Shown: piece after piece, positions 30,801-61,309 of the stretch
Layout: each line of letters starts with the position of its first letter
How positions within the stretch are numbered: position 1 is the first letter of the stretch
Source of the DNA: Rufibacter glacialis
GTDB taxonomy: Bacteria > Bacteroidota > Bacteroidia > Cytophagales > Hymenobacteraceae
Reading direction: 5' to 3'
DNA: 64,000 bases
Assembly (NCBI RefSeq): GCF_008271745.1
Contig: NZ_VKKZ01000022.1
Coordinates: forward strand, 62,001 to 126,000
Notes under the pieces: model-generated
The model's input: only the letters and a program-made list of their open reading frames with translations
What the model was told of the DNA's origin: nothing
Database searches by the model: none
Made by a program: the position numbers and the translations under genes

Positions 30801-30845
30801 CAGGATACAACAGGATAGAAAGAAGTAAGTGATGATCTAGTTTTG
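30801..30845 (+). promoter_or_regulatory. Tandem CAGGATA box and promoter of susC-1 (site A)
   Basis: CAGGATA (30801-30807) and CAGGATA (30811-30817) repeat with a 10-bp period. Exactly 20 nt later TAGTTTTG (30838-30845) matches TAnnTTTG perfectly. The predicted leader to the susC ATG is about 200 nt. This is the best copy of the motif shared by six PUL promoters. Nothing else is apparent in 30668-31052. Confidence 0.75.
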
Positions 30846-31052
30846 GTAAAAGGCTGGAAGAAGGAATAAGGTTCTTGAGTTCTCTAGGAATCTAGTTTCC
30901 ATCATTATTTCTAGTGTAGCATTTTGTTAATATTTAAAGAAGATACCAGCGGTCAATATTTGATACAGGGTCTTTGGGGTATATCTCCTACCTATTCATG
31001 GCAGGTGAGGTTTTCTAAACAGAATAGTGTTTTACATATTTAAAGATAAAGT

Positions 31053-34000
31053 ATGACTAAGTTTTTACCAAAGCAAAGTAGGCTATGGCGGCTTAATTGC
31101 TTCCTCGCATGTATTCCTTTGAGTATGGTAGGTGTTGTAGTTCCGTATAAGGCTACATCTCATCCATTTGCAGACAATAACTATGCTTTTCAGTGGACAC
31201 TTTCTGGAAAAGTTGTTTCTAGTACTGGAGATCCTTTACCAGGAGTTACTGTTTTACTGAAAGGCTCTACCACTGCTTCTTCTACCGGGGTAGATGGGAG
31301 CTTTACTATCGCTGTTCCAGAAGCCCCAGGAACCCTGGTTTTCTCTTATATAGGATTTACCTCCCAGGAAAAGGCCTTCACCGGGCCAGCAACTTTAAAT
31401 ATCACTTTGTCTGATGATGCCAAAGCCTTAGAAGAAGTAGTGGTAGTAGGTTATGGCACCCAGAAAAGAGCCGATGTAACTGGGGCTATTGCCACCATGA
31501 ATGCTGAAAAGCTAAATGAGCGCCCTTTGGCCAGGGTGGACCAAGCATTAGTAGGCCAAATGGCCGGCGTAAGGGTTCAACAAACCAGTGGAGTGCCTGG
31601 CAGAGGTTTTAGTATCCAGGTTAGAGGAACAGGATCAATTTCGGCCAACAATGAGCCTCTTTATGTGATTGATGGTTTCCCGTTAGCGGTTCAGCCGCAA
31701 AATTCTGGCGGGGGTTATTCCAGTGGCAACCCCTTAGATAATATCAATCCCAATGATATAGAGTCCATCCAAGTATTAAAAGATGCGGCTGCTTCGGCTA
31801 TCTACGGCTCCAGGGCATCAAACGGAGTGGTACTGATCACCACAAAAAGAGGGAAAACGGGTAAAGCCAAGATAAACCTGAATGTTTATGGAGGTGTTAG
31901 TGAAGTGGTTAAAAAGCTTGATGTGCTTAACGGGGAAGAATGGATTGATAGGGCGATTGAAAGCATTAATTACAACTGGGTGCGTTCCGGTACAGGCAGA
32001 ACAGCCAATCAAACTACAGAAGAAAGGCGAGTACTACTAAAGCTGCCTGCCGGGTCAGTAAACCGCAACTTCATGATTGATGACAGATGGCTACAGGAAG
32101 GATACCCTGGCTTGAAGTTTATTGATTGGCAGGATGAATTATTCCGCCAAGGTAATGTGAAAAACTACCAGCTTTCTGCCAGTGGAGGCACAGATGCAGT
32201 CAATTACTTTGTTTCTGGTGATTACTTAAATCAGCAGGGAGTGGCCATTGGCCTGGGGTATGAGAGATACTCTGCGCGAGCCAATGTGGAGGTAAAAGCC
32301 AATGACAAATTAACTTTAGGTCTAAATCTTTCTCCTTCTTATGCGGTTACAAATGACCCTGGGGTGGAGGGTAAAGACCAGTTAATGCACTTATCGGTTT
32401 CTATGCCCCCGGTAGTGGAGGAAAGTGCAGGTCTGCAAACAGGTGTTGCTCCTTTTAACGTGTACACCTGGGGACCTGCCAGGGTAAGTCCGGTTGCGGT
32501 TGCCAGAGAAGCCATAGGGGAAAATAAAGTTTTCAGAACGCTGGCTACCATTTTCGGACAGTATAAAATCCTGGAAGGGCTTAATTTTAGGACTACGTTT
32601 AACTTAGACCATGCTGATGCAACAACCAAAAACTGGTTACCCGCTAAGTTAGCCATCAACAGAAACACCACAGGGAGTCTGTTAGGCTATCGTAGACAAA
32701 CCTTCGTAAATGAAAATACCTTAGACTATAATAGAACCTTTGCCAAGATGCATAATATTTCTGCACTAGGTGGGATTTCTTATAGCAACTACAAATTCGA
32801 CAGCTGGCGACTTAGCGGGGCAGGGTATACTTCCAATGAGATTCCAACCTTAAATCAAGCTACCTCCTTTTCAGGCACCAGTGCTGAAACTCGGAATGTT
32901 CTGTTCTCCTACTTTGGTCGGGTGCAGTATAACTACAATGACCGTTACCTGCTTTCGGCCTCTATCCGGAGAGACGGTTCTTCAAGATTCGGAGATGAAA
33001 CACAGTGGGGCGTTTTCCCATCTGCTTCTATTGGCTGGAGGGTTTCTCAGGAGAGGTTTATGCAGAATATACCAGTTATCAATGATCTGAAGTTAAGGGC
33101 AAGCTGGGGTATTGCCGGTAACAACGGGGTTGGTGATTATGATGATATCTCCCGCTTACGGGTAGCTAATTACTCTTTCGGATCAGGTTTGGCGAACGGG
33201 CAGGTTCCACAAAACTTTCCTAACCCAAGGTTAAGTTGGGAGGAATCAGAGACCATAGATGTTGGTTTTGATTTGGGCCTGCTCTCAAACCGCGTATTCA
33301 CCTCATTTGACTTTTATGTTAAAACAAACAGAGACCTTCTGTTGAATATTCCGGTTCCTACGGCTTCCGGATTTACCACCGCGCTCACGAACATTGGGAA
33401 AGTAGTCAACAGAGGCTGGGAATTAGAGCTTACCACCCGCAACCTGACGGGTTTGTTTGAGTGGAATACAAACCTGAATTTCAGCCACAACCAGAATGAA
33501 GTAAGGCAGCTTGGTCCTAACAATACCCCCATTGCAGGCGGAGATTGGGACATAAACCATAACTTATTAATGGTTGGTCAGCCGATGTACAGCTTGTGGT
33601 TGGTACAGCAAGTGGGCCTGTTGTCAGCCCAAGACATAGCTGCTGGCTACCCCATGTATGGCAAGCAAGAGCCAGGAGATCCTAAGTACCTAGATGCCAA
33701 CAAAGACGGCAAAATAGATGCAGGTGACCGTGTGTTATCTGGCCATCCTAATCCAGATTATGTGTGGGGTATCAACAATTCCTTTAGTTACAAAGGGTTT
33801 GATCTAAGTGTTCTGGTGCAAGGCCAGTGGGGCGGAAAAATCTACTCTACCTTTGGGCGTGCGGTAAACAGAACGGGTATGGACTTTATAGACAATACCT
33901 TGGGGATGTACCGCAACAGATGGAGGTCGCCCGAAGACCCTGGCGACGGGGAGACCCACAAAGCCCCATCCAGCTTTGGCCGGATCAAGAACACAGATTG

Positions 34001-34238
34001 GTTATACCCTTCTGATTATTGGCGGGTAAGAAACATCACCTTGGGCTATAACCTTGGAGGGCTTATGAAAAGCAAATTCATCAGCGGTGCCAGAGTGTAT
34101 GTAACTGCTGAAAACTGGTTTGGGGATGATAAGTACACCGGAGGTTTCAACCCAGAAGCTGTGAACAATGGAGGTGATGATTATGGCGCTTTCCCATTAT
34201 CTAAGTCCATGATAGTTGGATTGAACCTCACCTTTTAA
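31053..34238 (+). CDS. SusC-family TonB-linked outer-membrane transporter, copy 1
   Basis: The 1061-residue protein has an N-terminal export signal (about 1-40), a CarboxypepD_reg-like domain (about 50-125, LSGKVVSSTGDPLPGVTVLL), the SusC-specific EEVVVVGYGTQKRADVTGA TonB-interaction region (about 128-147), a plug (about 150-265, with VQVRGTGS-like VRGTGSISANNEPLYVIDG and IQVLKDAAASAIYGSRASNGVVLI) and a C-terminal barrel ending MIVGLNLTF. SusC proteins import oligosaccharides captured by the SusD lipoprotein, here encoded 22 bp downstream. It is the first structural gene of the PUL. The base composition of this gene and its partner is visibly more AT-rich than the dcw genes. Confidence 0.95.
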   Translation: MTKFLPKQSRLWRLNCFLACIPLSMVGVVVPYKATSHPFADNNYAFQWTLSGKVVSSTGDPLPGVTVLLKGSTTASSTGVDGSFTIAVPEAPGTLVFSYIGFTSQEKAFTGPATLNITLSDDAKALEEVVVVGYGTQKRADVTGAIATMNAEKLNERPLARVDQALVGQMAGVRVQQTSGVPGRGFSIQVRGTGSISANNEPLYVIDGFPLAVQPQNSGGGYSSGNPLDNINPNDIESIQVLKDAAASAIYGSRASNGVVLITTKRGKTGKAKINLNVYGGVSEVVKKLDVLNGEEWIDRAIESINYNWVRSGTGRTANQTTEERRVLLKLPAGSVNRNFMIDDRWLQEGYPGLKFIDWQDELFRQGNVKNYQLSASGGTDAVNYFVSGDYLNQQGVAIGLGYERYSARANVEVKANDKLTLGLNLSPSYAVTNDPGVEGKDQLMHLSVSMPPVVEESAGLQTGVAPFNVYTWGPARVSPVAVAREAIGENKVFRTLATIFGQYKILEGLNFRTTFNLDHADATTKNWLPAKLAINRNTTGSLLGYRRQTFVNENTLDYNRTFAKMHNISALGGISYSNYKFDSWRLSGAGYTSNEIPTLNQATSFSGTSAETRNVLFSYFGRVQYNYNDRYLLSASIRRDGSSRFGDETQWGVFPSASIGWRVSQERFMQNIPVINDLKLRASWGIAGNNGVGDYDDISRLRVANYSFGSGLANGQVPQNFPNPRLSWEESETIDVGFDLGLLSNRVFTSFDFYVKTNRDLLLNIPVPTASGFTTALTNIGKVVNRGWELELTTRNLTGLFEWNTNLNFSHNQNEVRQLGPNNTPIAGGDWDINHNLLMVGQPMYSLWLVQQVGLLSAQDIAAGYPMYGKQEPGDPKYLDANKDGKIDAGDRVLSGHPNPDYVWGINNSFSYKGFDLSVLVQGQWGGKIYSTFGRAVNRTGMDFIDNTLGMYRNRWRSPEDPGDGETHKAPSSFGRIKNTDWLYPSDYWRVRNITLGYNLGGLMKSKFISGARVYVTAENWFGDDKYTGGFNPEAVNNGGDDYGAFPLSKSMIVGLNLTF

Positions 34239-34260
34239 CTACCCTTAAAAGACCAGAATC

Positions 34261-35772
34261 ATGAAAAGAATAGGAATACTACTTTGTTCGGCTTTGCTAC
34301 TTAGTCTAGGAGCATGTGAAGACGATTTAGACCAAGCACCCATTTCAGAAGCCAGTGCTGCTAATTTCTACCGAAACACGGAAGATTTCCAAATTGCAGT
34401 AAACGGTATTTATAATGCCTTGGGGAGCTATCCGGTCAGGAGCCTGAACTTGTCTGAGGTTAGATCAGATAATGTGTATGCTCCCGGTGTGTCTGGTGTG
34501 CGAGAGTGGAACCCCGTGAACAACTTTGAGAAAACGTTGGCCACCAACCCGTTGATATCAGATGCCTGGAACGCCAATTATGTAGGTATTTTACGATCGA
34601 ACACGGTTTTAGATAAAATAAACGAAACGGTAGTTCCAGATGCCGCTACCAGAGACAGGTTCATCGGGGAGGCAAAATTTTTAAGGGCCTTCTACTACTT
34701 TGATCTGGTGAGGTTGTTTGGCAGAGTTCCATTATTCAATAGAGTTCTGACGCCAGCCCAGGCCCTTGAAGTACCCAGAAGCCCGGTTGAAGAAGTATAT
34801 GCGTTGATCATATCAGATCTTGAAGATGCCATTTCAAAGTTGCCTACTACCTACAATGCCCAAAACAGAGGAAGGGTAACTGCATCTGCCGCCAAAGGAA
34901 TATTAGCCCTGGTACACCTAACCCGTTCCGGGCCCAAGCTACATCCGGCCGGACCTACCTTGGGGGTAAATGAGTATAGTAAAGCACTTACTTTATTGAA
35001 TGATGTCATCAGCAGTGGGCAGTACTCCTGGGTTAATAACTATGCCAGCATCTTCTCCTATACCAATGAGAACAACCCAGATATAGTTTTTGATGTGCAA
35101 GCCATTGGCGGAAGCGCCGGGGATGTAGGGGTGGGTTCTAATCTGCCATCTGAGATGTATGAAGAGCTATATGCGCGAGCCATAGGTATTCCATTTCCGG
35201 GCGGTATTCCAATAGATGGCCCTAAAACACCATCTAATGATTTGATCAACTCCTATTCAGCAAATGACGTGCGTGATAATTTCATCATCTTGCCTTCTTA
35301 CAGAGATCCAAACGGAGCTTTGGTCAACCGGGCACAGTTTGTGAAGTTCTTGGATGTAAGCCGGGCAGGGGTAGACCGTTTTAACTGGCCTATCAATTAT
35401 CCCGTGCTACGGTACACAGATGTCTTGTTGCTGAAGGCAGAAGCCATTTTGAGAGGTGGAGCCGGAGGCAGTCAGGGAGAGGTGGATGTCATCGTGAATC
35501 AGGTAAGGGCCAGAGCAGGTCTGCAACCTATTGCTAATGTGAACCTGGATATGCTTTTAGCCGAGCGAAGAAGAGAGTTTGCGGCTGAAGGGCTTAGGTG
35601 GCATGATCTGGTAAGAACAGGTAAGGTGCTTGACGTGATGAATGCTTGGAGAGCCACGGAAGATGTTGCCAGAAAAATTAATGCGGTCACTGCAAATGAT
35701 ATTGTCTATCCTATTCCGCAAACCCAACTAGATGTTAAAAAAGGCTTGTATGACCAAAATCCAGGTTATTAA
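34261..35772 (+). CDS. SusD/RagB-family nutrient-binding lipoprotein, copy 1
   Basis: A 503-residue lipoprotein: signal with lipobox LSLGAC, lipidated Cys19, then the acidic export-to-surface stretch EDDLDQ. Family features are FYRNTEDFQIAVNGIYNAL (about 36-54), the tetratricopeptide-like helices (AKFLRAFYYFDLVRLFGRVPLF, about 138-159) and the C-terminal YPVLRYTDVLLLKAEAIL, RRREFAAEGLRWHDLVRTGK and IVYPIPQTQLDVKKGLYDQNPGY segments. It forms the lid of the SusC transporter and binds oligosaccharide at the cell surface. Co-transcribed with the preceding susC and closed by a strong terminator. Confidence 0.95.
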   Translation: MKRIGILLCSALLLSLGACEDDLDQAPISEASAANFYRNTEDFQIAVNGIYNALGSYPVRSLNLSEVRSDNVYAPGVSGVREWNPVNNFEKTLATNPLISDAWNANYVGILRSNTVLDKINETVVPDAATRDRFIGEAKFLRAFYYFDLVRLFGRVPLFNRVLTPAQALEVPRSPVEEVYALIISDLEDAISKLPTTYNAQNRGRVTASAAKGILALVHLTRSGPKLHPAGPTLGVNEYSKALTLLNDVISSGQYSWVNNYASIFSYTNENNPDIVFDVQAIGGSAGDVGVGSNLPSEMYEELYARAIGIPFPGGIPIDGPKTPSNDLINSYSANDVRDNFIILPSYRDPNGALVNRAQFVKFLDVSRAGVDRFNWPINYPVLRYTDVLLLKAEAILRGGAGGSQGEVDVIVNQVRARAGLQPIANVNLDMLLAERRREFAAEGLRWHDLVRTGKVLDVMNAWRATEDVARKINAVTANDIVYPIPQTQLDVKKGLYDQNPGY

Positions 35773-36168: not shown

Positions 36169-36213
36169 CAGGTCACAGCAGGATAATCAAAAGGAAAAGA
36201 GCGGCTATATTTA
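36169..36213 (+). promoter_or_regulatory. Degenerate tandem CAGGATA box and promoter of the sulfatase operon (site F)
   Basis: CAGGTCA (36169-36175, two mismatches) and CAGGATA (36179-36185) keep the 10-bp period, and TATATTTA (36206-36213) begins exactly 20 nt after the second unit. The leader to the sulfatase ATG would be about 58 nt. Confidence 0.55.
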
Positions 36214-36277: not shown

Positions 36278-37894
36278 ATGAAAACGCCCCGTGTCCTTAG
36301 CCTTTGTTTGGTGGTTGCTGCCAGCCTTTTAGTGGGCCTGGGGCCACGGAAAACGCCGCCCAACATCATCATCATCCTAGCTGATGACATGGGGTATTCT
36401 GACCTGGGCAGTTTTGGGGCGGAGATAGAAACCCCGCACTTAGACGCGTTGGCCAGGGGAGGGCTCAAAATGACCCAATTCTACAATGCCTCGCGCTGTT
36501 GCCCTACCCGGGCGTCTTTGCTCACCGGCGTCTATCCGCACCAGGCGGGAGTAGGGCATATGGTGAATGAGCGGCAGCATCCTTCGTACCGGGGCATGCT
36601 CAACCAAAACTGTGTCACCATGGCTGAAGCCTTGAAAGAAGGAGGCTATACGACCCTGATGACCGGCAAATGGCACCTGAATTCCCGCAAAGAAGAATGG
36701 CCCCTGAAACATGGCTTTGACCGGTATTTCGGGCTATTGGATGGCGCCAACAGCTACTTCGGGAACCGGCCTTACCGCCCCAACCAAAAACTCACCTATG
36801 CCTTGGATGAAGCGGAATACACGCCTGGCAAAGACTTCTATGCCACCAATGCCTACACAGAGTACGCCTTGAAGTTCATAGACGAACGGAAAAATAAGAA
36901 CAACCCCTTCTTTCTCTACCTGGCGTACACCGCCCCGCACTGGCCCTTGCATGCGCTGGAAAAGGATATCGCCAAGTACAGAGGAAAGTACCGCAAAGGG
37001 TGGGACGTGCTGCGGGAAGAGCGCTTCAGACGCATGCAAGCCTTGGGTGTGGTAGGCCCAGGAGCTAAACTCCCGTCTAGAGCCCCGGAAGTGCCCGCCT
37101 GGATTTCGCTTTCAGCAGAAGAGAAAAAAGGGTGGGAAGAGAAGATGGCGGTATATGCGGCCATGATAGATAGAATGGATCAGAACATTGGCCGGCTTCG
37201 GCAGAAACTCAAAGAAACCGGGGAAGACCAGAATACGCTCATCATGTTCCTGTCAGACAACGGAGGAAGCTATGAAGTCATAGAGGGCCCCGAATTTACC
37301 TCTGAGATAAATGAAGCCAGTAAAAAGCCTGCCAGTGATCCTGCTTCCTTCACCTCCTATGAATACGCCGGAGCCAACCTGAGCAACACGCCCTTCCGCA
37401 AGTTCAAACGCTGGGAGCACGAGGGCGGCATTTCCACGCCGTTTATCGCCTATTTTCCAGGAACCATCAAACCCGGCAGCATCAACCATCAGCCCGCCCA
37501 CCTCATAGATTTAATGGCCACCGCCTTAGATTTCGCTGGGGTGGCTTACCCAAGCACCTACAAAGGAAAAAACATCAAACCCATGGAAGGCATCAGCCTG
37601 GCACCTGTGTTCAGAGGCCAGAAATGGGCGGGGCATGAAGCGCTCTTCTTTGAGCACGAAGGCAACCGCGCGGTACGGAAGGGCGACTGGAAACTGGTTT
37701 CCATGTTTCCGGAAAACAAGTGGGCGCTTTACAACATCACCGCAGACCGGTCAGAATTGAACGACCTAAGCGCCCAACATCCTGAAAAGGTGAAGGAAAT
37801 GGAAACGCTTTACAATGGCTGGGCCACCCGGGCGAATGTGGTGCCCTTTGCCCAGTTGTTGGAGTTAGATAAGCAGCAGAAGGAAAAGAAATAA
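36278..37894 (+). CDS. Exported S1-type sulfatase
   Basis: The 538-residue protein has a signal peptide (about 1-22) and the alkaline-phosphatase-like sulfatase fold. Metal-binding IIILADDMGYSDLG is at residues 30-43. The maturation motif is CCPTRASLLTG with the catalytic Cys at residue 74 (CxPxR), to be converted to formylglycine by an anaerobic (anSME) or FGE-type enzyme not encoded here. TGKWHLN, PFFLYLAYTAPHWPLH and MFLSDNGGSYE complete the active site. It would remove sulfate esters from a sugar in the periplasm. It is followed with a 1-bp overlap by an L-rhamnose mutarotase gene and then a rhamnosidase, so sulfated rhamnose is a reasonable guess for its target; this is inference. Confidence 0.93.
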   Translation: MKTPRVLSLCLVVAASLLVGLGPRKTPPNIIIILADDMGYSDLGSFGAEIETPHLDALARGGLKMTQFYNASRCCPTRASLLTGVYPHQAGVGHMVNERQHPSYRGMLNQNCVTMAEALKEGGYTTLMTGKWHLNSRKEEWPLKHGFDRYFGLLDGANSYFGNRPYRPNQKLTYALDEAEYTPGKDFYATNAYTEYALKFIDERKNKNNPFFLYLAYTAPHWPLHALEKDIAKYRGKYRKGWDVLREERFRRMQALGVVGPGAKLPSRAPEVPAWISLSAEEKKGWEEKMAVYAAMIDRMDQNIGRLRQKLKETGEDQNTLIMFLSDNGGSYEVIEGPEFTSEINEASKKPASDPASFTSYEYAGANLSNTPFRKFKRWEHEGGISTPFIAYFPGTIKPGSINHQPAHLIDLMATALDFAGVAYPSTYKGKNIKPMEGISLAPVFRGQKWAGHEALFFEHEGNRAVRKGDWKLVSMFPENKWALYNITADRSELNDLSAQHPEKVKEMETLYNGWATRANVVPFAQLLELDKQQKEKK

Positions 37895-38217
37895 TGGTAC
37901 AAACGAAACAGAGATTCGCGTTCAAAATGAAATTGAAACCAGGCTGTGCGGCGGAATACAAAAAACGCCATGACCAGATCTGGCCAGAGGTAGCCCAACT
38001 TTTGAAAGAGGCAGGCGTCAGTGACTATTCCATCTTTCTGGACGAGGAGACCCATACCTTATTTGCGGTGCAAAAGCAGCAGGGAGCCTCTTCCCAGGAT
38101 TTAGGCACTACCCAGATCGTGCAGAAATGGTGGGCCTACATGGCCGACATCATGGAAACCAACCCAGACAACTCACCGGTCTCCGTTCCCCTGCCAGAAG
38201 TGTTTTACCTGGCGTAG
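37894..38217 (+). CDS. rhaM: L-rhamnose mutarotase
   Basis: The 107-residue protein is of the usual length for RhaM and carries its signature: RFAFKMKLKPGCAAEYKKRHDQIWPEVAQLLKEAGVSDYSIFLD (split over residues 7-50) with the conserved His in KRHDQIWPE, then LFAVQK and QKWWAYMADIMETN (about 76-89) with the Trp pair. It interconverts alpha and beta anomers of L-rhamnose in the cytoplasm, speeding entry to RhaA. The overlap TAATG with the sulfatase means translational coupling. No rhaA, rhaB or rhaD is in the window. Confidence 0.93.
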   Translation: MVQTKQRFAFKMKLKPGCAAEYKKRHDQIWPEVAQLLKEAGVSDYSIFLDEETHTLFAVQKQQGASSQDLGTTQIVQKWWAYMADIMETNPDNSPVSVPLPEVFYLA

Positions 38218-38300
38218 CTTTATTAAGAACACAAAAAAGTTAAAAGGCTAGAATACCGGCTATTCCTCCCTATTTTACCTCACCACCCAGATTCTTCCCC

Positions 38301-41177
38301 ATGGCATTTAAATACAGATCCCTTGCCTCGCTTGCTTTGTTCGCAACTCTGCTGGCCAATTGCCGTCAGCCGCAAGCCTCCACGGTGGTTTCCGGGGCTA
38401 TTTCAGCAAAACAGGCCCAAACGGAGGCCTTGTGGCCTGAGGTGAAAAAAGAGAACCGCCCCTGGACCCGCTGGTGGTGGATGGGGAATGCGGTAGATGA
38501 AAAGAACATTGACCGGCTATTGGCCGAATATGCAAAGGCTGGCATAGGCGGCGTGGAGATTGCGCCCATCTACGGGGCTAAAGGGCATGAGAGCAGGTAC
38601 CTTGATTTCCTGTCCCCGCAATGGATGGCCATGCTGGATGCTACGGTAAAGAAAGCGGGCAGCCTGAACATGGGCGTGGACATGACCCAAGGCACGGGAT
38701 GGCCTTTTGGTGGGCCGCAGGTAACGCCGGAGCATGCTGCTTCCAGGTTGATTCTGCAAAAGTACGCCCTAAACGGCGGGCAGACGCTGACCGAGAAGCT
38801 GGAGGTGAAAGACCCCAAGCAGAAGGAAGTAGGCGTGGTGTTGCAGGCGGTCATGGCCTACCATGACAAAGGAGCCATCCTGAACCTCACCGACAAAGTA
38901 AGCCCCGAGGGCAAGCTGAACTGGAAAGCTCCGGCTGGTACCTGGGAGATTTACGCCGCTTTCAACGGAAAGACCCGCCAAATGGTGAAGAGAGCTGCCC
39001 CGGGCGGAGTAGGCTATACGTTGGACCATCTGTCAAAAACAGCTACCCAAGCCTATTTACAGCCTTTCACCCAAGCCTTCAACGGCAGCAACCACGGCGT
39101 AAGGGCGTTTTATAACGACAGCTATGAAGTGTACGGCGCGGACTGGTCGGCAGGCTTTTTTGAGGAGTTCCAGAAGCGGCGAGGGTATGACCTGCGGCCT
39201 TTCCTGCGGGAGCTGGTGAGCAAAGAGCACACAGAGAAAGTAGCCCGCCTTAAATCTGATTATCGGGAAACCATGAGCGAAATGCTCTACCACAACTTCT
39301 ATACTCCTTGGAACGAGTGGGCGCACAAACACAAGAGCCTCACCAAAAACCAATCGCATGGCTCTCCCGGGAACCTCCTGGATTTATACGCCGCCGTAGA
39401 CATCCCTGAGTGCGAGACCTTCGGGTCTAGTTATTTCCCCATCCCCGGTCTGCGCCGCGACAGTGCCGATGTGCGGAACGTAGACCCAGATCCTATCATG
39501 TTGAAATTCGCGTCTTCGGCAGCGCACGTGACCGGGAAAAACCTGGTGTCCAGTGAGACCTTCACGTGGTTAGGGGAACACTTCAAGACCTCCTATTCCC
39601 AGATGAAGCCCGAGGTGGAGCAGGTTTTCCTGTCTGGCGTGAACCATGTCTTCTACCACGGGGTCACCTACTCGCCAGAAGAGGTGGCTTGGCCCGGTTG
39701 GTTGTTTTATGCCTCGCTCAACATGACCCCGGCCAACAGTTTGTGGCCGCAGTTCAACGGGTTCAACCAATATATCACGCGGGTCCAGTCGGTGTTGCAA
39801 GCGGGCAAGGCAGATAATGAGATATTGGTGTACTGGCCCATCCATGATGTGTGGAGCAAACCTGAGGGCATGCAAATGATGATCGGGGTACACGAAGTGG
39901 ATGAATGGCTGCATCCCACGCAATTCTACAAGCAGTCAAAAGGATTGATGGAAGCGGGCTACTCTGTTGATTTTGTCTCCGATAAAATGCTGCACCAATC
40001 CAGCGTAAACAATGGTCAGATTATGACGGCCGCTGCTGCTCCGGAGCACAAAGTGCTGGTACTACCCCAAAGCAAGTACATGGCCGAAACCACCTTTGAG
40101 AGAGCTATCCAACTGGCCAACGAAGGCGCTACTGTTATCATAGAGCAATTGCCCACCGAGGTTCCCGGTTTGCATGACCTGGAGAACAGAAGACAGAAGC
40201 TGCAACAAGTAACGAAGTCCCTTTCTTTTACCGATGCGGGCAACGGCATCAGGCAAACGAAAGCCGGCAAAGGCGAGATCCTGCTATCCAAAGACATCCA
40301 AAAGGCCCTGGCTTATAAGAACATCCAGCGGGAAGCCCTCACCGACACCGGACTGAAATTCACCCGCCGCCATATTGGCAATGGGAAGTACTACTACCTT
40401 GTAAACCATACCGCCAAAGCCATTGACACCACTATACCTTTGAACGTGGCTGCCCAGTCGGTGGTGATGCTGGACCCGCAAAGCGGAAATGCCGGGTTGG
40501 CGGCTTCCTCCACCTCTCATGAGAAAACAACGGTACGGGTCCAGATGAAACCCGGCGAGGCACTCATCCTGAAGGCCACCACCCAACAGACCCCTGAGGT
40601 GATAGCTTGGCAATACCTGGATAATGCCGGTGCTCCCTCAGAAGTAAAAGGAACCTGGAGCCTCCGCTTCACCCAAGGCGGACCCGAGTTGCCTGCTGAG
40701 CAGAAGTTAACGCAACTGACCTCCTGGACCGAGTTACCAGACAAAAAAGGCGAATCCTTCTCTGGTACCGGCGAATACACCATCACCTTTGAGGTGCCTG
40801 CCAAAAAAGCGGCCGAATATGTGCTGGATTTGGGAAAAGTAAACGAAAGCGCCAAAGTGTGGATTAACGGTCAGGAAGTGGGGTATATCAACAGTATCCC
40901 GTTCCAGGCCAGGGTAGGGCAGTACCTGAAGCCGGGTAAAAACACCCTGAAAATTGAAGTAGCAAACCTGATGGCCAACCGCATCCGGCACATGGACCAG
41001 CAGAAAATCCAGTGGCGTAATTACTACGAGATCAATTTCGTGAACATCAATTACAAGCCTTTTGATGCCTCGGTATGGCAACCAATGCCTTCCGGGTTGT
41101 TGGGGCCAGTGACCTTGACCCCTTACAGTACCTCGGCAGGTGCGGTTTCCGGCTCCTTAGGAAGAAAAGGCAACTAA
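38301..41177 (+). CDS. GH106 alpha-L-rhamnosidase
   Basis: A 958-residue enzyme beginning with a hydrophobic signal (to about residue 20) and a Cys in ATLLANC, a possible but atypical lipobox. The catalytic TIM-barrel part opens with the GH106 pattern RPWTRWWWMGNAVDEKNIDRLL (residues about 52-73), GIGGVEIAPIYG (about 81-92) and MGVDMTQGTGWPFGGPQV (about 122-139); AFYNDSYEVYGADW and SSETFTWLGEHFKTSYSQMKPEVEQVFLSG-type segments (about 267-280, 416-445) carry likely catalytic acids. A C-terminal galactose-binding-like sandwich (about 800-890) follows. It should release terminal L-rhamnose from rhamnogalacturonan. 83 bp after rhaM, without terminator in between. Confidence 0.9.
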   Translation: MAFKYRSLASLALFATLLANCRQPQASTVVSGAISAKQAQTEALWPEVKKENRPWTRWWWMGNAVDEKNIDRLLAEYAKAGIGGVEIAPIYGAKGHESRYLDFLSPQWMAMLDATVKKAGSLNMGVDMTQGTGWPFGGPQVTPEHAASRLILQKYALNGGQTLTEKLEVKDPKQKEVGVVLQAVMAYHDKGAILNLTDKVSPEGKLNWKAPAGTWEIYAAFNGKTRQMVKRAAPGGVGYTLDHLSKTATQAYLQPFTQAFNGSNHGVRAFYNDSYEVYGADWSAGFFEEFQKRRGYDLRPFLRELVSKEHTEKVARLKSDYRETMSEMLYHNFYTPWNEWAHKHKSLTKNQSHGSPGNLLDLYAAVDIPECETFGSSYFPIPGLRRDSADVRNVDPDPIMLKFASSAAHVTGKNLVSSETFTWLGEHFKTSYSQMKPEVEQVFLSGVNHVFYHGVTYSPEEVAWPGWLFYASLNMTPANSLWPQFNGFNQYITRVQSVLQAGKADNEILVYWPIHDVWSKPEGMQMMIGVHEVDEWLHPTQFYKQSKGLMEAGYSVDFVSDKMLHQSSVNNGQIMTAAAAPEHKVLVLPQSKYMAETTFERAIQLANEGATVIIEQLPTEVPGLHDLENRRQKLQQVTKSLSFTDAGNGIRQTKAGKGEILLSKDIQKALAYKNIQREALTDTGLKFTRRHIGNGKYYYLVNHTAKAIDTTIPLNVAAQSVVMLDPQSGNAGLAASSTSHEKTTVRVQMKPGEALILKATTQQTPEVIAWQYLDNAGAPSEVKGTWSLRFTQGGPELPAEQKLTQLTSWTELPDKKGESFSGTGEYTITFEVPAKKAAEYVLDLGKVNESAKVWINGQEVGYINSIPFQARVGQYLKPGKNTLKIEVANLMANRIRHMDQQKIQWRNYYEINFVNINYKPFDASVWQPMPSGLLGPVTLTPYSTSAGAVSGSLGRKGN

Positions 41178-45328: not shown

Positions 45329-45373
45329 CAGGATAGTGCAGGATACGTGTCCATTGAAAGGTTTTTATTTTTA
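45329..45373 (+). promoter_or_regulatory. Tandem CAGGATA box and promoter of susC-2 (site B)
   Basis: CAGGATA (45329-45335) and CAGGATA (45339-45345), perfect copies with a 10-bp period, are followed after exactly 20 nt by TATTTTTA (45366-45373), one change from TAnnTTTG. The predicted leader is about 54 nt. Confidence 0.72.
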
Positions 45374-48701: not shown

Positions 48702-50612
48702 ATGAAAAAGAGGAATATACGTATTGCATCCATTTTGGCGTCGCTTCTGCTGTTAGGTACCCTCTCTTGTAATGACTTCTTGGAAGAGGAATTAGTGGGT
48801 ACGCTCACAGAGGACTATTACCGTACTGAGCAAGGGGTAGAGGATCTGATAGACGCTTCCTATGAGCCAACGCGCACAAAATTCACCTACGAATGGGCAT
48901 ACGCCCTTTGGAATTTTGGGACCGATGAATTTACCCATGGGGACCAGGTGAACTTTAACTACTATAACACTTATGATAGCCGGTTGAATGCCAACCCAGC
49001 TGACCCAGATGTTTTTATACACGAGGTTTGGGCTACTTATTATGATGGAATAAACCGCACAAACAACGGAATCAAGTATCTGCCAGAGGTGCAAGGGGTG
49101 AGAACCCTTACCACACCGGTAGCCAAAGCCCAACGAATGGGAGAATTACGCTTCTTGCGGGGGCTCTACTATTTTACCCTGGTGCAGCAGTTTGGGGCAA
49201 TTCCATTGGTGCTGGAGCCCACCCAAGGTATCAGAACAGAATTCAACAGAGCCCCGGTGCCAGAGGTATACAAAAGCATCATTTCAGACCTCAGGTTTGC
49301 GGCTGATAATTTACCAGCAACCCAACGGGATTTTGGCCGGGCAACAAAAGGAGCCGCCCAGCATTTCTTGGCAAAGGCCTACCTTACCAGAGGCAGCGCC
49401 AAGGCGGAACAGCGCGGCCAGCAGCCAACTGATATAGACAGCGCTGCTTATTTTGCTGATTTGGTTATCAAATCCCCTGTATATGTTCTGGAAAATGACT
49501 TTTCTAATTTGTGGGCTTTGTCTAGTTATGATGACAATGTAAACAAGTCCCAGACCAGCAAAGAAATTATATTCTCTGCCCAATGGAACGATGATCCTTT
49601 GATTGCCGGGCGTTATGGGAACCAGACCCACATGTATTACATCATGCAGTATGACAACCTTCCTGGCATGCGGCGTGATATCATAAATGGAAGACCTTTC
49701 CGTAGGTTGATGCCCACGGATTATACCATGGACATATATGATCGTAAGAATGATTCCCGCTTTTATAAGAGCTTCAAGCTAGCCTGGATCTCCAATAACC
49801 CGGGTACCATTCCTAAATGGTCAGCTTCCAATGCGCCTGACCCAAGCCTAAGAGACAAACCCAAATTTACTGAGGGGGATACAGCAGCCTATATCTGGGT
49901 CAACACCCCGGCTACCGCTTTGACACAGGCTACCATTGATGCGTCACCCCATGCTCTTTTCCCTAGATACTACAGAAATAGTAGAGGTGAATTGGTTTCA
50001 GCCTTTACCACCCGGAATAGGTACCCAACGTTGGTGAAGTGGCTTGATCCATTCCGGCTAACGGCGAACCAGCAACAAGGAGTAAAAGATGGTATACTGG
50101 CGCGTTTAGGAGAAACGTACCTCATTGCTGCCGAAGCGTATGGACGTAAAGGTGATTATGCCAAAGCCCTGGAATATATCAATGTCCTAAGGCAAAGGGC
50201 CGCCTATAAAGCCGGGGAAGCAAAGCGTCCGGAATACTGGCTAGTGGAAGGTGGTCAAAAAGACAATGTGGCTAGTACCTATTCTGAGATAAGGGCCACT
50301 ACCGCCTTGTTTACCACTAATGCCCCAAGTGAGCTTTACCCCTCTGGTGTGTCTTCCACGGCAGATAGATTTATCCATTTTGTCCTGAATGAAAGGACCC
50401 GTGAATTGGCGGGTGAGTTCCACCGGTGGGAAGACTTGGTTCGGACAGAATCACTTTTGAATAGGGCAAAGGCCTTCAATCCGGATGTTAAAAATCTACA
50501 AGGCTTCCATGCCCTTAGGCCAATTCCATTACAACACCTGGAGCGGTTAACCGTCAATGGGCAACCGCTTAACTCTGATCAACGTCAGGCTCAACAAAAC
50601 CCTGGGTATTAA
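48702..50612 (+). CDS. SusD/RagB-family nutrient-binding lipoprotein, copy 2
   Basis: A 636-residue lipoprotein, larger than usual (around 500-550). Signal peptide with lipobox TLSC (Cys23) and acidic surface-export signal NDFLEEE. Family blocks: LTEDYYRTEQGVEDLIDASY (about 36-55), MGELRFLRGLYYFTLVQQFGAIPLV (about 146-170), GILARLGETYLIAAEAYGRKGDYAKALEYIN (about 463-493) and the C-terminal FVLNERTRELAGEFHRWEDLVRT and RPIPLQHLERL. The extra length is in the ligand-side region (about 280-440). It is the lid/binding partner of the preceding SusC. Confidence 0.94.
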   Translation: MKKRNIRIASILASLLLLGTLSCNDFLEEELVGTLTEDYYRTEQGVEDLIDASYEPTRTKFTYEWAYALWNFGTDEFTHGDQVNFNYYNTYDSRLNANPADPDVFIHEVWATYYDGINRTNNGIKYLPEVQGVRTLTTPVAKAQRMGELRFLRGLYYFTLVQQFGAIPLVLEPTQGIRTEFNRAPVPEVYKSIISDLRFAADNLPATQRDFGRATKGAAQHFLAKAYLTRGSAKAEQRGQQPTDIDSAAYFADLVIKSPVYVLENDFSNLWALSSYDDNVNKSQTSKEIIFSAQWNDDPLIAGRYGNQTHMYYIMQYDNLPGMRRDIINGRPFRRLMPTDYTMDIYDRKNDSRFYKSFKLAWISNNPGTIPKWSASNAPDPSLRDKPKFTEGDTAAYIWVNTPATALTQATIDASPHALFPRYYRNSRGELVSAFTTRNRYPTLVKWLDPFRLTANQQQGVKDGILARLGETYLIAAEAYGRKGDYAKALEYINVLRQRAAYKAGEAKRPEYWLVEGGQKDNVASTYSEIRATTALFTTNAPSELYPSGVSSTADRFIHFVLNERTRELAGEFHRWEDLVRTESLLNRAKAFNPDVKNLQGFHALRPIPLQHLERLTVNGQPLNSDQRQAQQNPGY

Positions 50613-50834: not shown

Positions 50835-50879
50835 CCGGATAGAACAGGATGCTTCCGCCAAATCGCGGGTTTAATTTCA
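50835..50879 (+). promoter_or_regulatory. Tandem CAGGATA box and promoter of GH2 gene (site C)
   Basis: CCGGATA (50835-50841) and CAGGATG (50845-50851), each one mismatch from CAGGATA, with the 10-bp period; TAATTTCA (50872-50879) starts exactly 20 nt after. The leader to the GH2 ATG would be about 220 nt and contains a small perfect hairpin, AGGTAAG/CTTACCT with a CAT loop (51030-51046). No gene is seen elsewhere in 50675-51106. Confidence 0.62.
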
Positions 50880-56538: not shown

Positions 56539-59500
56539 TTATCGAGCAGCCTTCAGTAACAAGAGCCAATGGGCGGCAGTAGGCTTAGGTAAGGCCGTTC
56601 CCTTTTTTAACTTGGCTGGTAACTCAGCAGGTTGCGTTTTACCCGAATTCGGATCAAACCAACGACCGGTATAGGTTTTCTTAGGAAGCTTCTGATCAAA
56701 GGTGATTTCCTGACCAGCAAGGGAGGACAGAAGAACCGTGTTCCTTTTTAAATCAGTTAATGCCCAGTTCTGGGTACTATGGGCAAGCAGTCCGTCTTGA
56801 GGTTGCAGGTGCATGAGGTGGGCGGCCAGATGCTGCTGTACAAAGGAATCCAGCGGATGGGCATCTACGGTCCTTCCTTGCCCGTGCCCAGCCGTAGGGT
56901 TGCGCATGATGACCTGCGCCCCGCCCGCCATCAAGGCGGGCACTGGCCCGGCGCCGCTGTGCCAGGCAACAATGGCTTTGTCTGGGTATTTGGTGTGGTA
57001 TTCCCGCACCTGCCGATAGACTTGCTGTGGGGTGGTATTGTCGCCGAACTCCTTGGGGTGCATTTCACGGAAAGCCAGGTTCTTGCCGCCTTCTGGGGCC
57101 CACAAGGTACCGTCTGGCAGGTAGTGCCAGTAACGCATGTCTATGACGGCCACCTGTTTCGCCAACGCAGGGTCAGCCAATACGGCATCGGTGACGTTCT
57201 TGCTGGTGTCCAGCACCAGGCGCACAGTGCGGTTGTTCTTCTGCTCCCATTCGGCCACAGTTTCCTGAAAAAACCTCTGAAACGCAAAGGGCCCGGAATA
57301 CTGGAAACTTAACCCGAAGAGGATGTTGTCAAAGTGTCCCAGTAGGTCTAATACATGGAAGATGTACGCCCGGTGCAGTTCTCTTAGCTTTGGGTTGGTG
57401 GCGTCATAGAACTGGTTGGCCACGTGAACCCGGGCTTTCGGTTCCAGCGGATCTGGCAAGTTGGTTTCATTGATGTTGTTGGCAGGCCGCCAGGGGAAGT
57501 CTATCCAGTGCGAAGCGGTTTCTAATAGGTTGTGGTTGTTGTACAGGTGATGGTACAGCACAAGGCCTTTCTGGTCGCTGAGACGGGCGAATTCCCGGGT
57601 GCGGTCAAAGTACCAAGGATTGTAGGTGCTCACGTCGTACTTACTTAAACCGTCCCAGGCTTTGCCTTGCCCGCTGCGGGCCCAGGGTAGTTCATAGAAG
57701 GCGGCCCACACGTTGCTGTTGGGGCGCTCCACAATGGAATGGTCATCGCGTCGCCGGTCATACCAGATGGCGGGGCCGCTTTGGTAAAAAGGGGTGCCTT
57801 GTGCAGCTACTCTGGAGGCTAGGGCAGAGAGGTCTTCCGTCAGGCCTGGGCCCGTTCTGCCCGGCACGAAACGGGTAATACTGAGGCCGGCATCTAAGGC
57901 GTTGTTTGGTGAGGTTTGTCCCAGCCACCAGGCATCATTCACCATTCCTCCCCAGAGCGTTTTGTTCCCGATCACAAACCGGCCGTTCACAATTTGAAGG
58001 GGAGAGGAAGCCAGTTTCTGCTCAGATGGAGCAGGAGGGAGGTCTGTGGGGGTGAATTCTCTGAGAAGGCTGAAATCTGTTTGGGTGTATTCAGCCGGCT
58101 GTTTCCTGATGGCTGCCAACGCCTGTTTACCCAGTCTTTTTGAAAGCTGGATTGAGAAGAGCGGCTCAGGTGACGTGACGGAAACTACTGGCGCGGTAGC
58201 AGGTCCTTTAGTGACAATCTCTTGGGCAGTACAATTCCAGAGGACAGAATTAGCGGCAGTCCAGCCGCCGGCTTGTGCCCGTTCTATGTCATAGGTAAGC
58301 CTTAGGCCATTTCCGTTTACCTGCACATTTTCATAAAGTACGCCCGAAGCCCAACTCTCAAAAGAGCCGCTGGGGCCTTGGGCCTTGGTAGCAATACAAT
58401 TCAGGAAGACATTGGGGCCGGCTGCCGTAAACCCGATGGCGAAGTCATTGATTCCTGCCTCTGCGGTGCAGTGTTGCACAAGTACCTGTTGCCCCTCAAC
58501 TAAGAAGCTATGTCGGCGGTAGCCGCCAACCTCAGAGATGGGTTGTTCACTCCGGCAGCTTTCTACCGTTATTCTTCGGGCCCTAGGGCCAACCCGTACC
58601 GCCGAAGACACAAAGTGACGCGCCGTGATATTCTGCACCCAGGCATCCTGCACGTGGTTTACACTGATGGCATACCAGGCATGTTCCTCATCTTTGGGGT
58701 TGGCCTTGGAAAACTCACTTTCCAGAACCAGGTTTTCTAGGCCTAGGTGCTGTAGTGGTGCCTCTGCCATGACTTTCGCTACCGTGCCACCTCCGTATGG
58801 CTTTTCCAGGGCAGTGGTAATGGGGGCGTCAACGGTAATCTGGTTTTTAGCTGGGTCAAGAGAGATGATTGTGCGGTCCCAAACAAGGTTTCGGGAACCT
58901 GCCGGCCAGTGGAAACGAAGATCAGAGAACACCCCTTTTAACGTATCCATGCCTAGGGCGGCGATCCATTCTTTGGTGCTGGGACGGGTTATCACGACCA
59001 GGTCACCCGTATGGAACCCTTCCAGGGTTTCCAGGGTAAAGGTGCGGCTCCCGGCCGGAACAACTTGGTCTGTTACTTTGACGGAGGGGCCTGGCTTGGG
59101 GAGATTCTCTTTGCCAACAACCAGCAAGCTTCGCCGGCCCTTGCCGGTAGCTACTATGATTGTTTTTAGGTTTCCGCTTCCTCTTAGCACCACTCCATCT
59201 GCCTTCAGGTGAAGCTGTCCAGAGACCAGGAATTTACCTTCGCCCAGTTGCAGGGCACCTCTGAATCCATTTGGCTGAAGCGGTAAACGTGCTGCCTGAT
59301 CCAAGGCTCCTTGCAATAATTTAGTGTCATCTTGCCCCGAAGGCCTTACAAGTAAAACTGCCGGAACTTTAGGGATGGAAACACCGCCTCCCCCGTAACC
59401 AGCATGCGAAAAATCAATAGCCGGTAAGAAAGGTGTGGGCTGCGCGTGCACAGGAAGTAGCGGCAATTCCATGAATAGAAGCGTAGCCAAAAAGAAAAGC

Positions 59501-59556
59501 ATTCTGACTGGTGCTGGCTGCTTATGCTGGAAAGCGTTGGGGAGAAGTGAATACAT
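56539..59556 (-). CDS. Beta-helix pectate-lyase-like protein fused to DUF6298-type domain
   Basis: The 1005-residue exported protein (signal to about residue 38, PVHAQ) has two large parts. Residues 45-460 look like a right-handed beta-helix of the Pectate_lyase_3 type (DFSHAGYGGGG opening, DDTKLLQGALDQA, GVVLRGSGNLKTII, ARHFVSSAVRVGPRARRITVESC, HSFLVEGQQVLVQHC). Residues 520-920 form a TIM-barrel-like domain (FVIGNKTLWGGMVNDAWWLGQ, YNPWYFDRTREFARLSDQKGLVLYHHLYNNHNL, DNILFGLSFQYSGPFAF, VIDMRYWHYLPDG), which I assign to DUF6298. A C-terminal sandwich (KTYTGRWFDPNSGK) resembles the end domain of GH140-like enzymes. It is likely a pectin side-chain enzyme of unknown chemistry. It lies 183 bp downstream of the GH43-like gene, probably in one operon. 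Confidence 0.78.
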   Translation of the reverse strand: MYSLLPNAFQHKQPAPVRMLFFLATLLFMELPLLPVHAQPTPFLPAIDFSHAGYGGGGVSIPKVPAVLLVRPSGQDDTKLLQGALDQAARLPLQPNGFRGALQLGEGKFLVSGQLHLKADGVVLRGSGNLKTIIVATGKGRRSLLVVGKENLPKPGPSVKVTDQVVPAGSRTFTLETLEGFHTGDLVVITRPSTKEWIAALGMDTLKGVFSDLRFHWPAGSRNLVWDRTIISLDPAKNQITVDAPITTALEKPYGGGTVAKVMAEAPLQHLGLENLVLESEFSKANPKDEEHAWYAISVNHVQDAWVQNITARHFVSSAVRVGPRARRITVESCRSEQPISEVGGYRRHSFLVEGQQVLVQHCTAEAGINDFAIGFTAAGPNVFLNCIATKAQGPSGSFESWASGVLYENVQVNGNGLRLTYDIERAQAGGWTAANSVLWNCTAQEIVTKGPATAPVVSVTSPEPLFSIQLSKRLGKQALAAIRKQPAEYTQTDFSLLREFTPTDLPPAPSEQKLASSPLQIVNGRFVIGNKTLWGGMVNDAWWLGQTSPNNALDAGLSITRFVPGRTGPGLTEDLSALASRVAAQGTPFYQSGPAIWYDRRRDDHSIVERPNSNVWAAFYELPWARSGQGKAWDGLSKYDVSTYNPWYFDRTREFARLSDQKGLVLYHHLYNNHNLLETASHWIDFPWRPANNINETNLPDPLEPKARVHVANQFYDATNPKLRELHRAYIFHVLDLLGHFDNILFGLSFQYSGPFAFQRFFQETVAEWEQKNNRTVRLVLDTSKNVTDAVLADPALAKQVAVIDMRYWHYLPDGTLWAPEGGKNLAFREMHPKEFGDNTTPQQVYRQVREYHTKYPDKAIVAWHSGAGPVPALMAGGAQVIMRNPTAGHGQGRTVDAHPLDSFVQQHLAAHLMHLQPQDGLLAHSTQNWALTDLKRNTVLLSSLAGQEITFDQKLPKKTYTGRWFDPNSGKTQPAELPAKLKKGTALPKPTAAHWLLLLKAAR

Positions 59557-59739: not shown

Positions 59740-60813
59740 CTATGGCCGTTTTCCTGGTTTTAAGTTGATAAAGGTAGGCTTATCCCGGTCAGAGGTGAGT
59801 TTGCCTTCCTGGTACCCCAGTTCAGCGAGTTGGATCACACTCCTTTTGGCGGCCACTGAATTAGCCGGGGCCGGATTGGCTTTTGATCTTCCGGGGTGAG
59901 TGAAGTAGAAAAGGTACGCCTTGTCCCCGTTCACTACTACGTCTGGGTGTCCGCCTATGGCTTGGTCATCGGGGCCTTGGCCTGGTTCCTCCAATAGTCG
60001 CTCTTCCAGGGCTTGCCAATGGAGCAGGTCATTGGATTTGAATACCTGTAAGCCTTTCCAGGCGTCAATAATCATCCAGTACTGGTCTTTCCATTGGAAT
60101 ACCTTTGGTCCTTCTCCTCTGGCCTGAAGGGCCTTACCTTTGTCTTGCCAATGGTACAGGTCTTTGCTGTCTGCGTAGTAAATGGACTTGCCGTCTCTTT
60201 CATTGTTGTACCAGAGCCGCCAGGTGCCATCGGGTAACCGAAACACGCAGGCATCAATGACTTTGTCGGTGACTAGGGGCAGGGTAGACTGGTAGTCCCA
60301 ATTGAACAGGTCTTTGCTGGTCAAGTGGATGATGTGGCGCGGGTGGTTCCAATCGGTGAAAATGCCGGGTACGTAGGTGAGGTACATGTGGAACACGCCA
60401 TTATGTTCTACCACGTCTGGTGCCCAATGCGTATAGGCGGCCACCGGACGGTAATTGATGTTGGCTGTGTCCCGGTAGGTCCAGGAGGCACCGCCGTCGG
60501 TTGACTCCGCTATCCCTATGCGGGTTCCGTGGACCCAGGTAACACCTTCGGCCTGGGTATCTGTGGCCCGGCGGTTGGTGTAGAGCATAAACCATTTCTT
60601 TTCCTTTTTATGGTAAATCACCACCGGGTCAGCCGCGCCATCATAGATGGGGTCCGCAAACAAAGGTTTGGAAACCGGTTGCCGCGGCAAGTTCTTCTGA
60701 GCGCAGGCACCTAAGGGAAGCATCAGAACCATACCGAACAGACAAAGCTTCTGCATTTTTCTCAAGGCAGGGTGGCGTAGAAAGCTAGAAATGATGGATA
60801 GAGTATTTTTCAC
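59740..60813 (-). CDS. GH43-like five-bladed propeller glycoside hydrolase, lipoprotein
   Basis: The frame from 60813 gives 357 residues, but an internal ATG at residue 20 (about 60756) starts a tidier lipoprotein signal, MQKLCLFGMVLMLPLGAC with lipobox LGAC; either start keeps the lipobox. The mature protein is a beta-propeller of the GH43/GH32 clan: YDGAADPVVIYHKKEKKWFMLYTNR (split, first blade with the Asp base in ADP), YTHWAPDVVEHNGVFHMYLTY (second), DACVFRLPDGTWRLWYNNE (with the pKa-modulating Asp), ARGEGPKVFQWKDQYWMIID (with the candidate Glu acid) and QAIGGHPDVVVNGDKAYLFYFTH. It probably cleaves arabinose or galactose side chains. First gene of a minus-strand unit driven by site E. Confidence 0.82.
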   Translation of the reverse strand: MKNTLSIISSFLRHPALRKMQKLCLFGMVLMLPLGACAQKNLPRQPVSKPLFADPIYDGAADPVVIYHKKEKKWFMLYTNRRATDTQAEGVTWVHGTRIGIAESTDGGASWTYRDTANINYRPVAAYTHWAPDVVEHNGVFHMYLTYVPGIFTDWNHPRHIIHLTSKDLFNWDYQSTLPLVTDKVIDACVFRLPDGTWRLWYNNERDGKSIYYADSKDLYHWQDKGKALQARGEGPKVFQWKDQYWMIIDAWKGLQVFKSNDLLHWQALEERLLEEPGQGPDDQAIGGHPDVVVNGDKAYLFYFTHPGRSKANPAPANSVAAKRSVIQLAELGYQEGKLTSDRDKPTFINLKPGKRP

Positions 60814-60870
60814 TATTAAGATAGGGTAGAGGAAAGGCTTTGAGAAACAAGGGTTTCGAGGCCTCTTTTC

Positions 60871-60915
60871 TAAAAGTAGCTCCTTTTTGAATGTTTCCTA
60901 TCCTGTGCTATCCTG
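60871..60915 (-). promoter_or_regulatory. Tandem CAGGATA box and promoter of GH43-like gene (site E)
   Basis: On the minus strand CAGGATA (60915-60909) and CAGGATA (60905-60899) are perfect with a 10-bp period. Exactly 20 nt after comes TACTTTTA (60878-60871), one change from TAnnTTTG. The leader to the ATG at 60813 would be about 50 nt. Confidence 0.72.
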
Positions 60916-61264
60916 CCAACCTAATGGCCTGCTGAAGAAAGGAACCTTGACCTGGTGGAAGTACAGAAAAGCATTCTCTTTGGTCTTGTGAGTTGGTTAC
61001 TTGAAAGTATAAAGTACGGGGCTTGGGCCTCTACTTAGGTATCCTCTTCAACGCCCTTACAACCTGAATAGTAAAAGCCAACGGCCCCTTTGGTCCAGCC
61101 AATCTAAATTTTACCGGAAATCCTCCGCTGGGTTCTAGCAGAAGCAGAGAAAAGACCAGCGTCTAGTCTGATTCTCTGTCTATTCATCTACTATTCTATC
61201 AGGTTGAGGTGTGGCAGGTGGTTTGTATTTTATTTATAAAATATTAGAAATAATCATAAGAAAA

Positions 61265-61309
61265 CAGGATAGAACAGGATGCGCTATCCTCCTTAGTTAC
61301 ATAAACTTA
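61265..61309 (+). promoter_or_regulatory. Tandem CAGGATA box and promoter of PL11 copy 2 (site D)
   Basis: CAGGATA (61265-61271) and CAGGATG (61275-61281) with 10-bp period; TAAACTTA (61302-61309) starts exactly 20 nt after, keeping the TA but a weaker -7. A further TATCCT in inverse orientation (61285-61290) follows at once. Nothing else is recognisable in the 61310-61425 leader or in 60916-61264 between the divergent promoters. Confidence 0.62.

Follow-up and report, generated by a model that had tools for sequence, protein, structure and literature searches.

A 10-bp tandem promoter element in a rhamnogalacturonan locus of Rufibacter glacialis and a GntR-LacI chimera as its predicted activator

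Described regulators of rhamnose and rhamnogalacturonan genes

Regulators that join a GntR winged helix to a LacI/GalR-type sugar-binding core make up the AraR subfamily of the GntR family (PMC4494728). The stretch analysed here, called the window throughout, is 64,000 nucleotides of the 5.32-Mb genome of Rufibacter glacialis (G000; contig NZ_VKKZ01000022.1, C21:62001-126000). It contains a gene for such a chimera and, downstream of it, copies of a promoter element in which two 7-nt units follow each other head-to-tail at a period of 10 bp, 20 nt ahead of a Bacteroidota -7 box. The chimera resembles Bacillus subtilis AraR in its domains and in its link to a plant-sugar regulon. AraR, however, is named a repressor while an activator is predicted here, and instead of the palindromic operator of the AraR subfamily the locus carries a 10-bp head-to-tail tandem, assuming that the GntR protein is its reader.

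HTCS_Rgu-1 and HTCS_Rgu-2 of Bacteroides likewise belong to rhamnogalacturonan loci and have predicted direct-repeat sites, but the units of the Bacteroides hybrid systems average 21 bp apart and their AraC-type regulators lie within their own loci (PMC3878776), whereas the period is 10 bp here and none of the 17 HTH_18 genes of the genome lies at C21:92-175 kb. RhaR of Bacteroides thetaiotaomicron is a rhamnose regulator too, but it is of a different protein family (AraC) with a motif period of 21 bp, while at rhamnose genes the DeoR-type RhaR of other phyla, again of a different family, has direct repeats with a period of 10-11 bp, as found here (PMC3870299). A DeoR-type RhaR was rejected as the reader; the two HTH_DeoR genes found in the genome are both unlinked, on contigs C10 and C25. 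Direct repeats are also bound by other GntR relatives, namely GabR, TauR and PdxR of the MocR subfamily, NanR, NagQ and FarR, with some MocR proteins acting as activators (PMC4494728, PMC5320631), but they differ in their sensor domains, which are aminotransferase-like in MocR, and in the sequences of their sites. NCBIfam MocR models match the first ~88 residues of the chimera only, far below cut-off, and its sensor is LacI-like. In class-II activation of the PhoB/OmpR type, two units follow each other head-to-tail, about one helical turn apart, at the -35 region. This layout resembles the tandem described here, although PhoB and OmpR are of an unrelated family and controlled by phosphorylation. 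FucR and ManR are GntR-family regulators with named Bacteroides motifs (PMC3878776). In the parts of the open-licence literature available, no account was recognised that deals with the motif or with a rhamnose or rhamnogalacturonan regulator of the GntR type in Bacteroidota, which is weak evidence of absence.

The tandem is likely the operator of the chimera, which would act as a class-II activator, bound head-to-tail near -41, of one regulon for rhamnogalacturonan I and L-rhamnose. Two GntR winged-helix domains would sit on one face of the DNA, arranged head-to-tail at a distance of one helical turn, and would touch the RNA polymerase whose primary Bacteroidota sigma factor is at the -7 box. 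This contact would turn on a single set of genes with which rhamnogalacturonan I is degraded and L-rhamnose catabolised. Judged by the genes under the sites, L-rhamnose or an early product is the probable effector, most likely sensed by the LacI-type domain. The analysis shows the motif with its rigid spacing and its restriction to this locus, the genes that it precedes, and the way in which it occurs and varies together with the GntR protein; physical binding, activation as opposed to repression, the effector and the head-to-tail arrangement on DNA are what we infer.

The tandem element and its distance from the -7 box

The genome contains 13 good sites of the full pattern, CAGGAYA-N3-CAGGATR followed by N20 and a Bacteroidota -7 box, all confined to one 82-kb stretch (C21:92801-174928), with six in the window and seven past its right edge. 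A whole-genome search with CAGGAYA-N3-CAGGATR-N20-TANNYTT at up to 2 mismatches gave 14 matches, against 0 for a reversed-pattern control; the fourteenth, at C21:459573, has TTCCTGTA at the box position, that is, no box. At up to 3 mismatches there were 16 matches and 3 control matches, so that the two additional ones are at chance level. The units alone (up to 1 mismatch) occur at 12 places in the genome, nine of them in the locus with a box at +20 and three outside it without one. The initial annotation had described six promoters with a geometry unlikely to arise by chance. All six sites lie where it had placed them, and in each of them a TA follows unit 2 at a distance of exactly 20 nt, which confirms the observation; the number was too low, with 13 such promoters in the locus. 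The scatter of unspaced matches that it had expected of a spurious motif was not seen, as 13 of the 14 matches fall within one locus.

The spacing was examined with the units alone, at up to 1 mismatch, in 630 kb from eight genomes, that of R. glacialis and those of seven relatives in which a close copy of the GntR gene occurs. TA stands at exactly +20 in 79 of these 83 sites, the other four carrying CA, CA, TT and TG, in a sample that favours sites with a box because the eight genomes were picked for having full-pattern matches. At offset 20 TANNTTT was found 46 times, while no other offset between 5 and 44 had more than two occurrences. The consensus across the 83 sites is C[A/C]GGA[T/C]A[G/C]-N-[A/G]-CAGGATAG, and the stretch from unit 2 to the box is nearly unconserved except for a G right after unit 2 (54/83 sites). 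As a direct repeat the consensus units match at 8/8 positions, as an inverted repeat at 2/8, and the whole site is palindromic at only 6/18.

Could the pattern be chance, or the relic of a repetitive element? Without the box and at up to 3 mismatches, the short motif is hardly above shuffles of the window (23 matches against 15.0 +/- 4.1 expected, with 4 of 100 shuffles reaching 23), and because it barely exceeds chance in this form, the signal resides in the good matches and their spacing. There the picture is different: 14 full-pattern matches stand against 0 in the control, 13 of them lie within 82 kb, and conservation across genera holds for the units and box but not for the intervening and flanking DNA. 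The genome scan, the conserved spacing and the co-occurrence across 204 genomes given below refute a chance or relic origin, which we regard as having next to no probability.

The -7 box of a Bacteroidota promoter begins near -11. Counted from there, the tandem most likely spans about -48 to -32 with its centre near -40, which is the position of a class-II activator, and the site would overlap the -33/-35 region at a fixed spacing. This spacing stays rigid at many promoters, on either strand and across several genera, which suggests direct contact with the polymerase. The same overlap with the core promoter would also suit repression, in which the GntR-LacI protein on the tandem would block the polymerase until released by rhamnose or an oligosaccharide. 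We consider this unlikely. One fixed spacing is expected of a polymerase contact and is unnecessary for blocking, and activation is clearly favoured because a repressor would not need such rigidity. The lack of a conserved -33 element between site and box also speaks against repression, if weakly, as other boxes show no -33 signal either.

The rigid spacing to a -7-like box also resembles a bipartite promoter, and the tandem might then be an element for a dedicated extracytoplasmic function (ECF) sigma factor; a dedicated sigma factor is the alternative that the initial annotation had placed beside a head-to-tail activator. A tandem repeat is unusual for a sigma site. The box at the sites is TAnnTT(t)(a/g), with no -10-type element of its own that departs from TAnnTTTG; it is the usual box, TAnnTTT(g/a), of promoters read by the primary sigma factor of Bacteroidota (PMC7366714). 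Motif richness moreover goes with the GntR gene among the 204 genomes, which were scanned for that gene and for the motif. With an ordinary box and sites that accompany the GntR protein, a dedicated sigma factor is unsupported and very improbable. The part of the earlier proposal that stands is the activator arranged head-to-tail at the polymerase, which the +20 spacing and the direct symmetry favour.

In four genomes (G009, G018, G023 and G027), fifteen sites remote from the main locus lie 66 to 1215 bp upstream of genes of varied size; drawn from the full-pattern list and filtered for a box, they are no independent proof of the spacing. G009 has 24 matches in all, many of them, on C2 and C1, at a distance from the main cluster, so that its regulon may extend in trans to other loci.

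The GntR-LacI chimera as candidate reader

The candidate reader is encoded at 29587..30603 on the plus strand (338 aa). It has an N-terminal GntR winged helix (PF00392, E=8.1e-12, residues 16-78) and a C-terminal LacI/GalR-type sugar-binding domain (Peripla_BP_3, PF13377, residues 208-325). The AlphaFold (AF2) model has a LacI/PurR-type core (mean predicted local distance difference test, pLDDT, 88.8; predicted template modelling score, pTM, 0.70). LacI structures are the best Protein Data Bank (PDB) matches of the model in Foldseek, with PurR also among the matches, and the AraR DNA-binding domain 4egy is among the PDB sequence matches of the GntR alignment. Among the scanned open reading frames (ORFs) of the locus, from 29587 to 122559, this gene carries the only DNA-binding regulator domain; the scan covered all but four of them (a SusC-like gene crossing a stretch border, two ORFs antisense to called genes and a 102-aa ORF over the 50835 operator), three others in part.

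The motif follows this gene across genomes. Some match to the GntR protein is present in 97 of the 204 genomes of the bacterial family (R. glacialis included), and all 21 genomes with a copy of at least 64% identity are motif-rich, having 8-26 full-pattern matches. The remaining 183 genomes have 0-3 matches except for G017 with 7 and G061 with 5, while with the reversed pattern each genome has 0-2. G017 encodes a 48% copy with a variant tandem nearby, CAGGACAG-TN-CAGGACAG, and G052, outside the family, has a 54% copy and 3 full-pattern matches.

Alternatively, a hybrid two-component or AraC-type regulator from elsewhere in the genome could read the motif, with the GntR protein just travelling with the pathway genes. 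Hybrid two-component proteins do regulate polysaccharide loci and have predicted direct-repeat sites (PMC3878776), and the genome encodes two of them together with 15 other genes with AraC-type domains. Besides the absence of HTH_18 genes from the locus and the mean distance of 21 bp, not 10, in predicted hybrid-system sites, their distribution argues against them. Copies of the hybrid proteins with 74-78% identity occur in the motif-poor congeners G003, G004, G011, G012 and G015 (0-2 matches), whereas G010, with 17 matches, has only 38-39% matches to them among the ten candidates scored per genome. The two hybrid proteins were rejected as readers, as their phylogenetic profile, which covered these 2 of the 17 HTH_18 genes, fails to follow the motif, and a reader of this kind appears quite improbable. 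Of the candidates put forward in the initial annotation, the GntR-type protein at 29587 thus tracks the motif and the two hybrid proteins do not.

Several observations weigh against the chimera as an activator on the tandem, in addition to the choice of the eight genomes used for the spacing. The typical site of the GntR family is a palindrome (PMC4494728), and the characterised GntR-LacI chimera, AraR, is a named repressor, which also supports the repressor alternative. A LacI-type core of twofold symmetry would have to twist its linkers on a direct repeat, so that flexible linkers or two dimers would be needed for the head-to-tail tandem. AraC has flexible linkers. No tandem site was found before the GntR gene (29400-29586), so the regulator seems not to control its own gene through the motif. 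G061 has its five matches in a 78% complete assembly with no GntR match listed. A further 143 intergenic TAnnTTTG boxes were examined and show no -33 TTTG/TTG signal ahead of them either, so the proposal of the initial annotation that the tandem takes the place of a -33 element could not be shown, and a missing -33 at the tandem sites proves nothing. Among distant copies, the tandem with a box at offset 20 (up to 3 mismatches) occurs in just 20 of 72 loci, and in 36 loci from 8 distant clades (the groups of Chitinophaga, Algoriphagus, Larkinella, Emticicia, Runella, Spirosoma, Cyclobacterium and Telluribacter) de novo searches yielded no shared tandem under the criteria applied. The last such point concerns a 40-41% paralog whose recognition helix reads LAKVT in place of LSRDT: a CAGTASAG tandem is found in 2 of 3 genomes with this paralog, at one site each and with no box at +20, and the third genome is without a site.

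Distant loci were nevertheless informative on the geometry. A scan with an alignment of 21 GntR proteins gave copies in many Bacteroidota genera, and the best 80 of 588 confirmed loci were used. In a search free of any assumed unit (tandem 8-mers, 7/8 identical, ahead of TA..TTT[GA]), a peak appeared at period 10 and offset 20 in 14 of the 80 loci, where adjoining offsets partly recount sites and two of nine distant examples are not of the CAG type. In 72 loci of 45-51% copies, several from closely related species and hence not independent, CAGGANAG tandems (up to 2 mismatches) numbered 80 at period 10 against 10, 10, 13 and 12 at periods 8, 9, 11 and 12. TA..TT at offset 20 followed the period-10 tandems in 24 cases (16 loci) and those of the other four periods in none. 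A more permissive list of tandems per locus, whose rules favour offset 20, did not enter the counts. A second TA..TT peak, at offset 11 (10 cases, up to 2 mismatches) after period-10 tandems, comes from loci L164-L235 and is possibly one conserved stretch of close relatives counted repeatedly. Rhamnose genes often lie within 10 kb of the GntR gene, with a RhaEW relative in 43 of the 80 loci, RhaI in 36, RhaB in 29 and RhaT in 11 (tblastn E<=1e-30).

The LAKVT paralog provides a natural test of a code between helix and unit. A CAGTAGAG-type tandem lies ~90-110 bp upstream of its gene in G018 and G027 (loci L096 and L097). The CAGTASAG variant has no match in the five congeners that lack the paralog, nor in G000, G009 and G022, while the one-mismatch matches (2 in G026, 1 in G018) look like chance. 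An Arg-G contact has been described for GntR recognition helices (PMC4494728), and the pairing of the LAKVT helix with CAGTAGAG-type units would fit it, which is suggestive only.

We lean slightly towards regarding such chimeras as an undescribed class in soil, water and marine Bacteroidota (Rufibacter, Pontibacter, Adhaeribacter, Dyadobacter, Hymenobacter, Mucilaginibacter, Zobellia and others). Its members would work as class-II activators, with a head-to-tail operator of 10-bp period that keeps a fixed distance of 20 bp to the -7 box, providing a rhamnose/rhamnogalacturonan switch other than AraC-type RhaR and the hybrid systems, and unit variants would follow protein clades as a readable protein-DNA code. 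If true, a GntR-LacI chimera would be a tandem-site activator, in contrast to the repressor AraR and to the palindromic sites typical of the GntR family. Assigning an orphan promoter element to a regulator in this way would predict a 13-promoter regulon from sequence alone, one that serves a complex plant polysaccharide outside gut Bacteroides. Activation at the unusual promoters of Bacteroidota, with their primary sigma factor, their -7 box and a -33 box that is weak or absent, could then be studied in a clean system.

Genes under the thirteen sites

Within the window, four of the putative operators match CAGGATRNNNCAGGATR exactly, while those at 50835 and 36169 have one and two mismatches; in each, the -7 box begins 20 nt past unit 2, and the genes were assigned with Pfam. 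The first, CAGGATA-CAA-CAGGATA (30801..30817, plus strand; box TAGTTTTG, 30838..30845), is upstream of a SusC-like/SusD pair at 31053-35772 with TonB-receptor and SusD domains. CAGGTCA-CAG-CAGGATA (36169..36185, plus; box TATATTTA, 36206..36213) precedes a likely operon (36278..41177, plus) of a sulfatase (36278-37894), the L-rhamnose mutarotase RhaM (37894-38217) and a GH106 alpha-L-rhamnosidase (38301-41177); this and other shared transcripts are suggested by gene spacing. A second SusC-like/SusD pair (45434-50612) lies downstream of CAGGATA-GTG-CAGGATA (45329..45345, plus; box TATTTTTA, 45366..45373), and a GH2 gene (51107-54025) downstream of CCGGATA-GAA-CAGGATG (50835..50851, plus; box TAATTTCA, 50872..50879). 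On the minus strand, CAGGATA-GCA-CAGGATA (60899..60915; box TACTTTTA, 60871..60878) is upstream of a GH43-like gene (59740-60813). The sixth operator, CAGGATA-GAA-CAGGATG (61265..61281, plus; box TAAACTTA, 61302..61309), is upstream of a PL11 gene starting at 61426, which was assigned from its part in the window. This rhamnogalacturonan lyase gene crosses the window end and extends to C21:128333, and its product, at 1635 aa, is very long and has additional regions at both the N and the C terminus.

When the search was extended to C21:62001-190000, seven further sites of the same build were found, at 66896 (+), 94394 (-), 94716 (+), 103329 (-), 104978 (-), 105036 (+) and 112885 (+), counted from the window start. 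Under them are a fasciclin-domain gene followed by a SusC-like/SusD pair, a GH28 gene, another SusC-like/SusD pair, a GH88-family hydrolase gene, a DUF4861 gene, a further PL11 gene, and rhaT followed by genes for RhaEW, a RhaI-like isomerase and a kinase. RhaT and RhaEW exceed the NCBI cut-offs, RhaEW having been scored on a partial sequence. The isomerase matched L-rhamnose isomerase models below cut-off, and the rhamnulokinase match of the kinase is weak. Genes resembling those for lactate utilisation come after the isomerase and kinase genes. Taken together, the locus looks like a single pathway, from rhamnogalacturonan I through to L-rhamnose catabolism.

That one site serves a sulfatase together with rhamnose mutarotase and a GH106 rhamnosidase (36278-38217 for the first two) is odd for land-plant pectin, in which we know of no sulfation. 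The sulfatase beside rhamnose genes possibly reflects an algal rhamnose polymer as an additional substrate. Genes of unknown families are also present in the locus, encoding DUF6250 (43988-44890), DUF6298 (56539-59556, minus) and DUF4861 (C21:165455-166741, minus), the last with a tandem site of its own. The site at 104978 (minus; C21:166952-166978) consists of three units at a 10-bp period instead of two, CAGGGCACGG CAGGATGGCC CAGGACC.

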